Shown here piece after piece: positions 12,460-23,993 of a DNA stretch of 64,000 bases. Position numbers and translations under genes: made by a program. The stretch lies in assembly GCA_021808285.1 (NCBI GenBank), contig JAKBBV010000006.1, positions 1 through 64,000 on the forward strand, given 5' to 3'. Under the pieces are notes generated by a model. The model searched no databases, was not told the origin of the DNA, and worked only from the letters and a program-made list of their open reading frames with translations. This DNA comes from Pseudomonadota bacterium (lineage in GTDB: Bacteria > Pseudomonadota > Alphaproteobacteria > Caulobacterales > Caulobacteraceae). Within the stretch, counting starts at the first letter, position 1. Each line of letters begins with the position of its first letter.

Positions 12460-14685
<2,226 letters not shown>

Positions 14686-18665: not shown

Positions 18666-19496
18666 TCAGGGGGCGGAGACCGCCGGGTCCTCATCGAGGG
18701 GATGGCCGAGCGTCACAGGTCCGCCGGGCGCCGGCGGCGAGGGGAAGAGGCGCAGGCCCTTGAGCCACAGCCGCAGCGCCTCCAGGTGGATGGCGCCGAC
18801 CACCTTCAGGGTCAGCAGGGGCAGGAACAGGAATTGGCGCAGCAATTCGGCGTCGGTCACCTGGCGACGGACCCCGGCGAAGGAGGCGAAGATCAGTCGC
18901 TCGCCCTCCCGCCCCTGATCCGATCCGGCGCCGGCCAGACCCTCGACGATGACCGAGACGGTCTCATCCGGCGGGCGCACGGCGAAGCGGTAGGACATCT
19001 CCATGCCCATGAAGGGTGAGACGTGGAAGGTCTTGGCGCTGGCCTGACGAATCACCGGGGCGCCGCCGGCCCTCGGGTCGTCCGGGATCGGGACCACATA
19101 GGCGTGGCGCTCGCCGAAGGTGTTGTGAACCTCATAGATCAAAGCGGACAGGCGGCCGGCCGCGTCGTCGCAGAAATAGACGCTCAAGGGATTGAAGACG
19201 AAGCCCAGCACGCGCGGCATGGCCAGAAGTCGGATGCGGCCGGGCGCAAAGGTCAGGCCCGCGGCGGCGAGGCTCTCCAGCGCGAAACCGCGCGGCCCCT
19301 GCCCTTGCCCATGATCGCACCGGTAGAGACTGAAAAGATTGAAGCGGTCGCGGGACAGCAGGCGCAGGCGCGAGGCGGCGGCCCCAACCTCATCCAGATC
19401 GACGAGCAGTTGAAAAATGCGATAGCGCAGACGGTGAGACCGCGGGGCGAAGCGCGTATGGACCACGTCGCCGACGAAGAGCGAGAGGTCGCTCAC
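18666..19496 (-). CDS. DUF1365 family protein (ECF11/ChrR module)
   Basis: 276 residues, starting MSDLSLFVGDVVHTRFAPR, with LRYRIFQLLVDLDE and NPLSVYFCDD as typical DUF1365 phrases. Its start overlaps the FAD oxidoreductase stop by four bases. DUF1365 proteins are recurrent partners of FAD oxidoreductases and cyclopropane-type methyltransferases in sigma-E/ChrR (singlet oxygen) gene groups, where they take part in fatty-acyl modification. The biochemical function is not established from sequence. It is the last gene of the leftward arm driven by the ECF promoter at 20941-20969. Confidence 0.88.
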   Translation of the reverse strand: MSDLSLFVGDVVHTRFAPRSHRLRYRIFQLLVDLDEVGAAASRLRLLSRDRFNLFSLYRCDHGQGQGPRGFALESLAAAGLTFAPGRIRLLAMPRVLGFVFNPLSVYFCDDAAGRLSALIYEVHNTFGERHAYVVPIPDDPRAGGAPVIRQASAKTFHVSPFMGMEMSYRFAVRPPDETVSVIVEGLAGAGSDQGREGERLIFASFAGVRRQVTDAELLRQFLFLPLLTLKVVGAIHLEALRLWLKGLRLFPSPPAPGGPVTLGHPLDEDPAVSAP

Positions 19497-20866
19497 GCCG
19501 CATCGCCCAGCAGATCCGGGACGCGGCGCGAGGCGGGCGCCGGACCCAGTCGGATGCGGTCCGACTCCCCGGCCACGGTCCAGGGCCGGCGCACGCCGCC
19601 GAGCTGCTCGGCCACCGCCAGGCCGGCCTGGAGGCCATCCTCATGAAAACCGGCGCCGAAGTGGGCGCCACACCACCAGACCCCGCCTTCGCCTTGCAGG
19701 CTCCAGAGCTGCTCCTGGGCGCGGAGAGCCTGGGCATCGAAGCGCGGATGGTGGTAGATTTCGGTATGGATGATCCGCGCCGGGTCTGGCGAGATCGCGG
19801 GATTGAGGGTGACGAAATAGGGCGTGGCGCGCGGCAGATCCTGCAGCCGGTTCATCCAATAGGTGACGCAGAGGCTTTGCTCGGCGCCTTCTCCCCGGCC
19901 GATATAGTTCCAGGCCGACCAGGCCTGGCGTCGCTTCGGCATCAGGGCGGCGTCGGAGTGAAGCACCGCCAGGTTGCGGGTATAGCCAAAGGCACCCAGC
20001 AGGGCCTGCTCGCGCGCCGTGGGGGCCTCCAGAAGGGCCAGGGCCTGATCGGCATGTGTCGCCACCACCACGGCGTCGAAGCGCTCCACCGCCCCGGACG
20101 CGTCACGGACCCGTACGCCGTCGTCGGTGCGGGTCAGACTCACCGCCGCAAGGCCGGCTCTTATACGCCCGACGAGAGGAGCAGCCAGGCGCTGGACATA
20201 GGCGCGGCTGCCGCCCTCCACGGTGCGCCACACCGGGCGGTCGAGAATCTTCAGCAGGCCGTGATTTTCGAAGAAGCGGATGAAGGCGGCCGCGGGATAG
20301 TCCCTGATCTCGCGCGTCGAGGCCGACCAGATGGCCGCCGCCTGGGGCAGAAGATGATCATCCTGGAACGCCCGCCCATAACCTTGGGCCTTGAGATAGT
20401 CGCCGAGACTCGCCCCCTCAGCGTCAAGGGCGCAGGCATGTCCAGGCGCCTGGCGATAGAATCGCACCAGATCGTTGAGCATGGCCCAGAAACGGGGACG
20501 GACCAGGTTGCGCAGTTGGGAGAACAGGGTGACGAGATTGTCGCCGCCGTACTCCATGCGGCCGTCCTCAAGACTGACGGCGAAGCCCATGTTTGAGATC
20601 TTGGTGGGGACGTTCAGATGGGCGAAAAGCGCCGTGAGATTGGGATAGGTGACCTCGTTATAGACGATAAAGCCCATATCGACGGGCAGGGAGGCGGCCG
20701 GACCGGCCGGGGCCTCCACCGTGTGGCTGTGTCCGCCAAGCCGCGCATCGGCTTCATAGAGGATCACGTCGTGAGCCGGGTTCAGAAGCCACGCGGCGGA
20801 GAGGCCGGAGACTCCGGCCCCGATCACCGCGATCTTGAGGCGTCGGTTCGGAACGACGTTATTCAC
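19493..20866 (-). CDS. FAD-dependent amine-oxidase-like oxidoreductase (ECF11/ChrR module)
   Basis: About 457 residues from a GTG at 20866; an ATG at 20914 is possible and adds 16 residues rich in Arg/Gly/Pro. The Rossmann loop is GAGVSG at 16-21, followed by YEADARLGGHSHT, as in flavin amine oxidase/desaturase-like proteins. Homologues lie next to rpoE-chrR in Rhodobacter sphaeroides, within the regulon linked to singlet-oxygen defence and furan/methylated fatty acids. It heads the leftward arm with DUF1365 and has its own ECF-type promoter. A role in oxidising membrane acyl chains is likely (inference). Confidence 0.88.
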   Translation of the reverse strand: MNNVVPNRRLKIAVIGAGVSGLSAAWLLNPAHDVILYEADARLGGHSHTVEAPAGPAASLPVDMGFIVYNEVTYPNLTALFAHLNVPTKISNMGFAVSLEDGRMEYGGDNLVTLFSQLRNLVRPRFWAMLNDLVRFYRQAPGHACALDAEGASLGDYLKAQGYGRAFQDDHLLPQAAAIWSASTREIRDYPAAAFIRFFENHGLLKILDRPVWRTVEGGSRAYVQRLAAPLVGRIRAGLAAVSLTRTDDGVRVRDASGAVERFDAVVVATHADQALALLEAPTAREQALLGAFGYTRNLAVLHSDAALMPKRRQAWSAWNYIGRGEGAEQSLCVTYWMNRLQDLPRATPYFVTLNPAISPDPARIIHTEIYHHPRFDAQALRAQEQLWSLQGEGGVWWCGAHFGAGFHEDGLQAGLAVAEQLGGVRRPWTVAGESDRIRLGPAPASRRVPDLLGDAA

Positions 20867-20940: not shown

Positions 20941-20969
20941 TTCTACGCCGCTTCGTCGACGGCGGATCA
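20941..20969 (-). promoter_or_regulatory. ECF11 (sigma-E) promoter for FAD oxidoreductase-DUF1365
   Basis: On the reverse strand TGATCC (20964-20969) is followed after exactly 18 bp by TAGAA (20941-20945). This matches the TGATCC-N18-TAAGA type promoter known for R. sphaeroides sigma-E. The start of transcription would fall near 20934, upstream of both possible start codons (20914, 20866). Confidence 0.75.
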
Positions 20970-20993
20970 GGCGCAGCCGCGCCAGCTGTCGAT

Positions 20994-21022
20994 TGATCCG
21001 CTTTCCCACCAGGCGCGTAAAC
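20994..21022 (+). promoter_or_regulatory. ECF11 (sigma-E) autoregulatory promoter for rpoE-chrR
   Basis: TGATCC (20994-20999), 18 bp, TAAAC (21018-21022). It has the same -35 word and the same spacer as the divergent promoter 25 bp to its left. Transcription would start near 21029, leaving about 104 bases before the ATG at 21133. That also rules out the in-frame ATG at 21028 as the usual start. Confidence 0.75.
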
Positions 21023-21132
21023 CTGTCATGCATGGCGCTCGGGTCCCCTCTCCACGCCTCTTCACCGGCCTGCGACCGCAGCCGCCGCGCTGGCGCGCGC
21101 CGACGCTCGCCGATATCCAGGACTGCAGCGCC

Positions 21133-21705
21133 ATGACCGGTCGCACGGCCCGTCCAAAGCCCCCCGGCCACTCCCAGATGATCGCGGCGATCGCCCGGTG
21201 CGGCGACCGCGACGCCTTCGCCTCTCTCTTTCAGCATTTCGCACCCCGCGTGAAGAGTTATCTCCTGCGGCTCGGGGCCTCACCGGAGGCGGCCGAGGAG
21301 CTGGCCCAGGAAACGCTGCTCACGGTGTGGCGCCGCGCGGACCGGTTCGACCCGAGCCTGGCTGCGGCCTCCACCTGGATTTTCACCATCGCCCGTAATC
21401 TGCGACTGGACCTGGCCCGCCGGCAGGTCCGCGCCGCAGCCGCCGCGCCTCCCGACGAGGCGCCGCCTGAGCCTCAGCCCGACGCCCTGCTTGGCGCCCG
21501 GGAGGATGAGGCCCGGCTGGTCCGGGCGATCAGCGACCTGCCCCCAGACCAGGCGCAGGTCATCCGCGAGGCCTTCTATTCGGACAAGCCGCACTCCGAG
21601 ATCGCGCGGGAGCTGGATCTGCCGCTGGGCACGGTGAAGTCCCGGGTGCGGCTGGCGCTCGCCCGACTGCGCCTGCGCCTCGCCGAACCGGGAGACTCGA
21701 CATGA
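21133..21705 (+). CDS. rpoE: ECF sigma factor, ECF11 group (RpoE-like, singlet-oxygen response)
   Basis: 190 residues from the ATG at 21133 (AGGA ten bases upstream). Region 2 reads FASLFQHFAPRVKSYLLRLG and EELAQETLLTVW; region 4 has DLPPDQAQVIREAFYSDKPH then SEIARELDLPLGTVKSRVR. Its stop overlaps the chrR start by four bases. In Rhodobacter and Caulobacter the sigma-E-ChrR pair responds to singlet oxygen, organic hydroperoxide, UV-A and cadmium. It is expected to transcribe its own promoter and the divergent oxidoreductase operon. Confidence 0.93.
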   Translation: MTGRTARPKPPGHSQMIAAIARCGDRDAFASLFQHFAPRVKSYLLRLGASPEAAEELAQETLLTVWRRADRFDPSLAAASTWIFTIARNLRLDLARRQVRAAAAAPPDEAPPEPQPDALLGAREDEARLVRAISDLPPDQAQVIREAFYSDKPHSEIARELDLPLGTVKSRVRLALARLRLRLAEPGDST

Positions 21706-22376
21706 GCAGGGACACCGTCCTGACGGGGGTCGGGAGGGCCGATCCGCAGCGCCATCCCAGCGAAGCGCGTCTTCTGGACTATGCCTGCGGGTCGCTCGCC
21801 GGGTCCGCACGCCTTGTGGTGGGGGCCCACCTGCTGACCTGTCCCGCCTGTTCGCGGGCGGTGGGCGAATTCGAGAGGGTGGGCGGCGACTGGCTGGAGG
21901 CTCTCGATCCCGCTCTCATGTCTCCAGAAGCCTTGCCCCTCGCCCTGGCGCGGATCGATCGGCCCTCGCCCCCCGCGGCCCCCGCCGCGCCGAGGCCCGA
22001 GGGCTGGCTGCCCGTCCCCGATGCGGTGGCCCGGGCCTCCCTCGGACGACGGCGGCGGGCGGCAGGCGCATGGATTGTGCCCGTGAGCCGCGGACCGGGC
22101 GCGGAGCGATGTTACCTCCTGGGAATGTCGGCGGGGCGCGGGGCGCCGGCGCACGGGCATCGCGCCGGTGAGATGACCGTCGTTCTCAGAGGCGCCTTTT
22201 GCGATGGCGACGAGGTCTATGGCCCTGGAGATTTCTGCGAACACGACGGGTCGATCAAGCACGCGCCGCGGGCGACCGCGACCGGAGATTGCGTCTGCCT
22301 CATCCACACGGACGGTCCCCTGGCGGCGGTGGATTGGGTCGGACGCCTGGTATTCCCTTTGCTGGGAGTCGGGTGA
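21702..22376 (+). CDS. chrR: ChrR-family zinc-binding anti-sigma factor with C-terminal cupin
   Basis: 224 residues. The N-terminal anti-sigma domain has His18, His43, Cys47 and Cys50 (HLLTCPAC), the four zinc ligands of ChrR with identical spacing. The C-terminal cupin keeps His151, His153, Glu157 and His187, again spaced exactly as in R. sphaeroides ChrR. The protein holds the ECF sigma factor inactive in the cytoplasm until singlet oxygen or peroxide acts, and the cupin part is needed for that response. All residues needed for both domains appear present. Confidence 0.94.
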   Translation: MSRDTVLTGVGRADPQRHPSEARLLDYACGSLAGSARLVVGAHLLTCPACSRAVGEFERVGGDWLEALDPALMSPEALPLALARIDRPSPPAAPAAPRPEGWLPVPDAVARASLGRRRRAAGAWIVPVSRGPGAERCYLLGMSAGRGAPAHGHRAGEMTVVLRGAFCDGDEVYGPGDFCEHDGSIKHAPRATATGDCVCLIHTDGPLAAVDWVGRLVFPLLGVG

Positions 22377-22514
22377 TGGCTTGGGCCTCCCCGCGCTGAC
22401 CCCGCCTCGCCTGAACGACGAAGACCCGTTCTCGACCTGTGGCGGCCTGCCCGCCGATCAGGCACAATCGTCAAGCTTGATGTCGAGCTGTTGAAGAGAT
22501 CCGAGCTTGCCGCC

Positions 22515-23549
22515 ATGAGCCCTACTTCCCTCGCCGTCCGCGCGGCGGAGCGCCTTGATCTACCGGACTCGCTGTTGCGCGGCGCCATAGCCCGCTTCGT
22601 GGCGCGCGCGCGTACGGAGCTGGCACGCGCCGAGGGGGACGGCGAGGCCGTGTTCGCCCTGGCCATGGATCAGCGGCCGGTGGCCGAGGCGACCGACGCC
22701 GCCAACGCCCAGCATTATGAAGTGCCAGCGGAGTTCTTTCGCCGCATCCTGGGGCCGCACCTGAAATATTCCAGCGGTTACTACGCCAAACCGGATTCGA
22801 CCCTGGCGGAGGCGGAGGCGGCCGCCCTGACGGCGACCTGCGAGCACGCCGACCTGGCGGATGGCCAACGGGTGCTGGAACTGGGCTGCGGCTGGGGCTC
22901 CCTCAGCCTGTGGATGGCCAAGGCCTATCCGCTGTCGACGATCACCGCCGTCTCCAACTCGCACTCTCAGCGGCGCTATATCCAGGGCGAGGCCAGGGCG
23001 CGGGGCCTGAACAACCTCGTGGTCATCACCCGGGACATGAACAGCTTCAGCCCGCCCAGCCGCTACGACCGGATCGTGTCGGTGGAGATGTTCGAGCACA
23101 TGTCCAACTGGCGCGCGCTACTGGGCCGCATCCTCCCGGCCCTCGAACCCGATGGGCGGCTATTTCTGCACGTCTTCAGCAATCGGGACCGGCCCTACAG
23201 CTATGATGCGTCCGACCCGGACGACTTCATCGCCCGACACTTCTTCACCGGCGGCATCATGCCCAGCCATGGGCTGATCCGCTGTTTCGCCGACCTGGCG
23301 CAGGTCGAGGAGGAATGGCGCTGGAGCGGCGAGCATTACCGCCGCACGGCCGAGGACTGGCTGGCCAATTTCGACCGCGAGACGCCGAACCTGAAACCGA
23401 TCCTCAGGGAGGTCTACGGCCGGGACGCGGCGATCTGGCGGCGGCGATGGCGTCTGTTCTTTCTCGCCGTGGCGGGCATGTTCGGCGACGATGGGGGCCG
23501 GGTTTGGGGGGTCAGCCACTATCGCCTGCGCCCCGTGGGCCGCGCCTGA
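22515..23549 (+). CDS. Cyclopropane-fatty-acyl-phospholipid synthase-family SAM methyltransferase
   Basis: 344 residues from the ATG at 22515; a TTG at 22491 would add eight. The CFA-synthase hallmarks are AQHYEVPAEFFRRILGPHLKY upstream of LELGCGWGSLSLWMA (SAM site) and later SVEMFEHM. It acts on unsaturated acyl chains of membrane phospholipids. Its place 138 bp after chrR, with DUF1365 and the FAD protein on the other arm, fits the class of methylases that make methylated trans-unsaturated chains on the way to furan fatty acids in R. sphaeroides. I cannot tell that class from ordinary cyclopropane synthases by eye. Confidence 0.88.
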   Translation: MSPTSLAVRAAERLDLPDSLLRGAIARFVARARTELARAEGDGEAVFALAMDQRPVAEATDAANAQHYEVPAEFFRRILGPHLKYSSGYYAKPDSTLAEAEAAALTATCEHADLADGQRVLELGCGWGSLSLWMAKAYPLSTITAVSNSHSQRRYIQGEARARGLNNLVVITRDMNSFSPPSRYDRIVSVEMFEHMSNWRALLGRILPALEPDGRLFLHVFSNRDRPYSYDASDPDDFIARHFFTGGIMPSHGLIRCFADLAQVEEEWRWSGEHYRRTAEDWLANFDRETPNLKPILREVYGRDAAIWRRRWRLFFLAVAGMFGDDGGRVWGVSHYRLRPVGRA

Positions 23550-23573: not shown

Positions 23574-23993
23574 ATGGTCATTCGCTGGATTGTCGCCTGG
23601 TTGGCCGCGGCGCTCATCTTCGCGGGCCTGGATGCGGTGTGGCTGATCTCGACGAACGCCACGCTCTACAGACCGGTTCTGGGGCCTGTGCTCGCAGCGC
23701 AGGTGCGGCCGATCCCGGCGGTCCTGTTTTATCTGGTCTATCTGACCGGCACGGTGGTCCTGGCGGTCGGGCCGGCCCTGGCGGCGCGAAACTGGCGGCG
23801 GGCGAGCCTCAACGGCGCCCTGTTTGGGTTCTTCGCCTATGCCACCTACGACCTGACCAATTTCGCCACCCTGGCGGTGTGGTCGACGCGGATCACGCTT
23901 CTGGACCTCGCCTGGGGAACCTTCCTGACCGCCGCCGGAGCGACGGCGGGCTATCTCGGCGGGGCCTGGGCTTCGCGCCGGTCTCAGGACTGA
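23574..23993 (+). CDS. DUF2177 family membrane protein
   Basis: 139 residues with four predicted membrane helices (about 5-24, 48-68, 79-98 and 108-131) and the DUF2177 phrases GLDAVWLIS and GFFAYATYDLTN. It follows the methyltransferase by 24 bp, in the same transcript, and is a recurrent member of ECF11/ChrR gene groups. Its function is unknown; a membrane role in the same lipid-modification response is suggested by context only. Its 3' end overlaps the convergent gene by 10 bp. Confidence 0.85.
   Translation: MVIRWIVAWLAAALIFAGLDAVWLISTNATLYRPVLGPVLAAQVRPIPAVLFYLVYLTGTVVLAVGPALAARNWRRASLNGALFGFFAYATYDLTNFATLAVWSTRITLLDLAWGTFLTAAGATAGYLGGAWASRRSQD

Follow-up and report, generated by a model that had tools for sequence, protein, structure and literature searches.

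Does the 82-bp stretch between a gene for an FAD oxidoreductase and a gene for an ECF sigma factor in a Caulobacteraceae genome (2.9 Mb, 97.75% complete) hold two back-to-back promoters, through which a single sigma factor would control both flanking operons? An earlier note on this DNA had proposed such an arrangement, and we analysed it within a surrounding stretch of 64,000 nucleotides, hereafter the window. Two TGATCC words are present on opposite strands, each followed after 18 bp by the TAGAA or TAAAC that the note had described: the minus-strand word runs from 20969 to 20964 with TAGAAA from 20946, and the plus-strand word from 20994 to 20999 with TAAACC from 21018. Their reported separation of 25 bp holds as the distance between the 5′ ends, while 24 bp lie between the words themselves. 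Similarly, the -35 words and spacers fit the sigma-E consensus exactly at both sites, but the CG of the published TGATCC-N16-CGTA had been missed, and the -10 elements are CGTAGAAA and CGTAAACC, longer than TAGAA and TAAAC. This consensus is the one printed for PSPTO_1043 of P. syringae (PMC5507510), and the mapped promoter of Shewanella rpoE2 agrees with it (PMC4336711). EcfF of Bradyrhizobium was discarded as a comparator, since it belongs to a different ECF group.

The loose pattern TGATCC-N17-19-TA occurs in the 64-kb window at least as often as expected by chance (3 found vs 1.81 expected). Scanning the window for TGATCC-N16-CGTA identified both sites as exact matches, the sequence of ECF11-dependent promoters, and no third exact site. 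Using a Markov-1 simulation with the composition of the window, we obtained a chance expectation per 64 kb of 0.066 for single sites and of ~1e-6 for back-to-back pairs (gap ≤60). We consider it highly probable (around 0.92), on the basis of sequence evidence, that these are back-to-back promoters for the adjacent ECF11 sigma factor, driving both arms upon removal of ChrR. The features of the locus are listed in Table 1.

Table 1. Predicted genes and putative promoter elements around the divergent pair, in window coordinates.
Feature	Position	Strand	Basis
UfaO-like DUF1365 protein, overlaps ufaD	18666..19496	-	PF07103, E 1e-70
UfaD-like FAD oxidoreductase	19493..20866	-	PF01593 and PF13450; divergent homologue in most related loci
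Putative ECF11-type promoter of the ufaD-ufaO arm, TGATCC-N16-CGTA(GAAA)	20944..20969	-	Exact consensus; kept in relatives
Gap between the two -35 words, 24 bp	20970..20993	.	Sequence; gap statistics
Putative ECF11-type promoter of the rpoE-chrR arm, TGATCC-N16-CGTA(AACC)	20994..21019	+	Exact consensus; kept in relatives
rpoE-like ECF11 sigma factor	21133..21705	+	phmmer match to SigE of R. sphaeroides (2q1z/2z2s), E 5e-41
chrR, zinc anti-sigma factor with cupin domain	21702..22376	+	TIGR02451 above cut-off; PDB 2z2s, E 2e-28
CMAS-family methyltransferase	22491..23549	+	PF02353; type A vs type B comparison
DUF2177 membrane protein	23574..23993	+	PF09945, E 4e-40

The first gene of the right arm was assigned to ECF11 on the basis of its best PDB match, SigE of R. 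sphaeroides (E 5e-41; next best 2e-18). When begun at ATG 21133, the protein aligns from residues 17-182 to residues 17-182 of SigE, in the same numbering, and this ATG is probably the start codon; the first-listed ATG 21028 is unlikely because transcription on the plus strand is expected to start near 21027. The chrR gene overlaps rpoE by ATGA, and its product carries both metal motifs, HxxxCxxC (as HLLTCPAC) and HxHxxxE (as HGHRAGE). H18, H43, C47 and C50, together with H151, H153, E157 and H187, match the ligands listed for ChrR (PMC6852236), covering both the zinc and the cupin sites. About 115 bp separate chrR from the CMAS gene, which allows for a separate promoter, and about 25 bp separate the CMAS gene from the DUF2177 gene.

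In the left arm, the genes for the FAD oxidoreductase and the DUF1365 protein are adjacent and co-directional with overlapping frames, the arrangement of ufaD and ufaO as judged by Pfam families. The furan fatty acid synthesis proteins UfaD and UfaO belong to these same families (PMC7380195). The start of ufaD is probably GTG 20866, downstream of the first-listed start; this codon has GGGAG in front of it and lies a short way upstream of the FAD-binding motif, while ATG 20914 is a possible start.

On the basis of these identities, we propose that removal of ChrR in response to singlet oxygen or organic peroxides would free sigma-E to join RNA polymerase and to transcribe in both directions. 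Rightward transcription would enter rpoE-chrR, resulting in positive autoregulation together with more of the sigma factor's own inhibitor, and would probably continue into the CMAS and DUF2177 genes. Leftward transcription would enter ufaD-ufaO; relatives of these genes modify methylated fatty acids of the membrane, and the left arm may feed back on ChrR in the manner of R. sphaeroides. The same promoter sequence occurs again at a distant site of the genome, ahead of a photolyase gene and the likelier gene for UfaM. We infer the use of both sites by the sigma-E holoenzyme, the start sites, the induction signal and the induction upon loss of ChrR. Such a circuit would be compact: from the same 76 bp, the sigma factor of a Caulobacteraceae genome would drive its own operon and genes related to those that promote the destruction of its inhibitor in R. 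sphaeroides.

We next considered the regulon, for which a genome-wide search with TGATCC-N18-TANA had been suggested. Run as an N17-19 scan, this search was too loose, returning 21 sites, while the version with CGTA returned 5. As ~3 exact TGATCC-N16-CGTA sites are expected by chance in this genome, single sites mean little alone. Judged from their ORF context, the exact sites at G000:C9:21206 and C71:47920 are chance or coding occurrences. Another, at G000:C75:19550, lies ~85 bp upstream of the start codon of phrA, which encodes a DNA photolyase. At this locus (L243, G000:C75:19550-22285), the promoter and phrA are directly followed by a type B CMAS gene, resembling a phrA-ufaM pair. In many other loci, a type B CMAS gene is the third gene after ufaD-ufaO, and in R. 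palustris, where the order is RPA2571-2570-2569, RPA2569 is UfaM (PMC7380195). Because the type B order matches that of R. palustris, and the type A CMAS of the window shares only 27-33% identity with type B CMAS, the gene behind phrA is more likely to encode UfaM than the CMAS gene of the window. The latter is probably a second enzyme, a paralogue distinct from the probable UfaM. Separately, a frame within the window (12460-14640, minus strand) resembles catalase-peroxidase KatG by eye. The katG gene is an ECF11 target in P. syringae (PMC5507510); no exact ECF11 site was found near the KatG-like frame.

The sigma factor could act as described and yet respond mainly to organic peroxide, superoxide or metal stress, in which case the label 'singlet-oxygen module' used in the earlier note would be a misnomer. 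As cited in PMC6852236, organic hydroperoxide also induces SigE-ChrR of C. crescentus, and the response to other inducers is slower. The weak effect seen in S. maltophilia, where the homologous system barely affects singlet-oxygen tolerance (PMC11832516), points the same way. Against this, homologues of ufaD and ufaO, which are linked to the sigma factor here, are needed for singlet-oxygen-dependent turnover of ChrR in R. sphaeroides (PMC3818230), and the photolyase gene carries the same promoter. We regard a mainly different signal as unlikely, at about one chance in four, and it is compatible with the two sites being promoters.

The reading of the pair as two ECF11 promoters was further assessed in related genomes. 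Members of the same genus that have chrR and an intact upstream stretch contain the promoter pair, with TGATCT instead of TGATCC on the plus side in one of them (G009). Two genomes (G007 and G010) have neither chrR nor the pair; in G013 the locus ends at a contig end, and in G005 chrR and the ufaD-adjacent pair are on different contigs. Among 104 rpoE loci, drawn from GTDB genomes and relatives, the minus-strand motif (≤1 mismatch) was found in 66 of the 74 that have ufaD/ufaO in divergent orientation and in 2 of the 30 that do not (Fisher 6e-16, with kinship uncorrected and significance therefore inflated, as related loci are not independent). The corresponding counts for the exact motif are 49 of 74 and 2 of 30, while the plus-strand motif was present in 69 of the 74 and in 20 of the 30. 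An alternative is that only the rpoE-side site is a promoter, with the minus-strand site a chance occurrence or relic and ufaD-ufaO transcribed from another promoter; in its favour, 8 of the 74 loci that have divergent ufa genes contain no minus-strand motif at ≤1 mismatch. However, the contrast between 66 of 74 and 2 of 30, together with exact conservation of the minus-strand motif in nearly all members of the genus, makes this very improbable, and a weak scan found no sigma-70-like site between the divergent genes.

A cleaner test of linkage than presence or absence in rpoE loci is a blind fetch of loci using the exact pair alone, in which 58 of the 63 loci retrieved were located between divergent rpoE and ufaD/ufaO. 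Among the other five, L202 and L217 have chrR or ufaD. In L186 (G198), ufaD lies on one side of an exact back-to-back pair (gap 3 bp) and DUF2177-ufaO on the other, and the stretch examined contains no rpoE. The exact pairs of L196 and L197 (G226 and G322, from one genus) have a 56-bp gap and none of the six query genes beside them; they possibly mark another target of an ECF11 sigma factor. In an even sample of the class comprising 385 genomes, 16 carried the pair at a gap of 0-30 and 11 at a gap of 31-61, while a reversed control pattern gave 0 matches. Presence of the exact pair comes close to being diagnostic of an rpoE-ufaD locus, and offers a way to search unannotated genomes for the system. 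Taken together, the gene identities, the joint conservation of motif and divergent genes and the precedent of R. sphaeroides support the proposal that one ECF11 sigma factor serves both arms.

The gap between the back-to-back -35 words ranges from 2 to 69 bp across loci. In gap sets that were assembled by hand, with kinship roughly handled, a period near 11 bp was favoured in the first set (42 gaps; R 0.44; jitter test 0.0015), after which this period was picked. The period and phase taken from it were seen again in a second set of 16-24 gaps (null fraction 0.0001), and the phase from the first two sets in a third set of 20 gaps (0.004); some lineages of the first set are also present in the later ones. 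When the data were reduced to a single value for each combination of group and gap (n = 90), R was 0.43 at 11.0 bp. Considering exact motifs only, R was 0.59 outside the family of the window (n = 36) and 0.23 inside it (n = 26, p 0.25); the 24-bp gap of the window is in phase with the ~11-bp steps. Control distances at the same loci, from the -35 word to the sigma gene and from the -35 word to the ufaD match (positions approximate), revealed no ~11-bp period. For lac loops, fits gave in vivo helical repeats of 11.08-11.60 bp per turn (PMC1762422). The preferred step seems close to this repeat, with a strong signal outside the family of the window and a weak one inside. Given the hand-made sets, the rough handling of kinship, the post hoc period and the shared lineages, we treat the ~11-bp spacing as a lead.

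One tentative interpretation, which falls somewhat short of an even chance, is that the promoters are rotationally coupled, with gaps in ~11-bp steps (near 2-5, 12-16, 22-26, 36-37, 46-49 and 57-60). A fixed angular relation would then hold for two sigma-E polymerases, for their alpha C-terminal domains or for an upstream factor that they share, so that the sensor and effector arms would fire cooperatively or exclude each other. At a 24-bp gap, the upstream contacts of two polymerases are expected to overlap, and the two arms may therefore compete or cooperate. If the spacing rule is real, the natural series of spacings would make the interaction of neighbouring divergent polymerases testable. 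The inverted TGATCC words and the 11-bp preference would also suit an operator in place of two promoters, to which a DNA-binding regulator would bind cooperatively or with looping, but a separate CGTA follows each TGATCC after exactly 16 bp, motif-keeping loci lacking a divergent partner keep the plus-strand copy (20/30) and a single copy precedes phrA. We consider this alternative very improbable.

The preferred reading, two promoters for one ECF11 sigma factor, aligns with several known systems. A core regulon of ~8 genes, furan fatty acid genes among them, has been described (PMC6852236). In Shewanella, TGATC words are found upstream of both rpoE2, which precedes chrR, and SO_1987, as in the two arms of the window, and both genes are sigma dependent (PMC4336711); the partner is a Lon-domain protein in Shewanella and UfaD in the window. 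In S. maltophilia, rpoEc-chrR-chrA is accompanied by the divergent smlt2375-2367, like the window a membrane-lipid cluster that includes an FAD oxidoreductase. This cluster, which also encodes CFA synthases, is upregulated by loss of chrR through the sigma factor (PMC11832516). However, the gene set differs, and the main phenotype concerns superoxide and beta-lactams rather than singlet oxygen. The closest counterpart is R. sphaeroides rpoE-chrR with RSP_1091-1087 (SigE-ChrR, ECF11), which has the same layout and the same sigma and anti-sigma families; rpoE-chrR adjoins ufaD-ufaO there, and both operons lie behind RpoE-dependent promoters (PMC3818230). The window differs in having the CMAS and DUF2177 genes after chrR, and its ufaD arm apparently comprises two genes compared with five in R. 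sphaeroides. As the paired-promoter arrangement is already published for R. sphaeroides, the arrangement in the window is not new in kind, and represents a further example of it.
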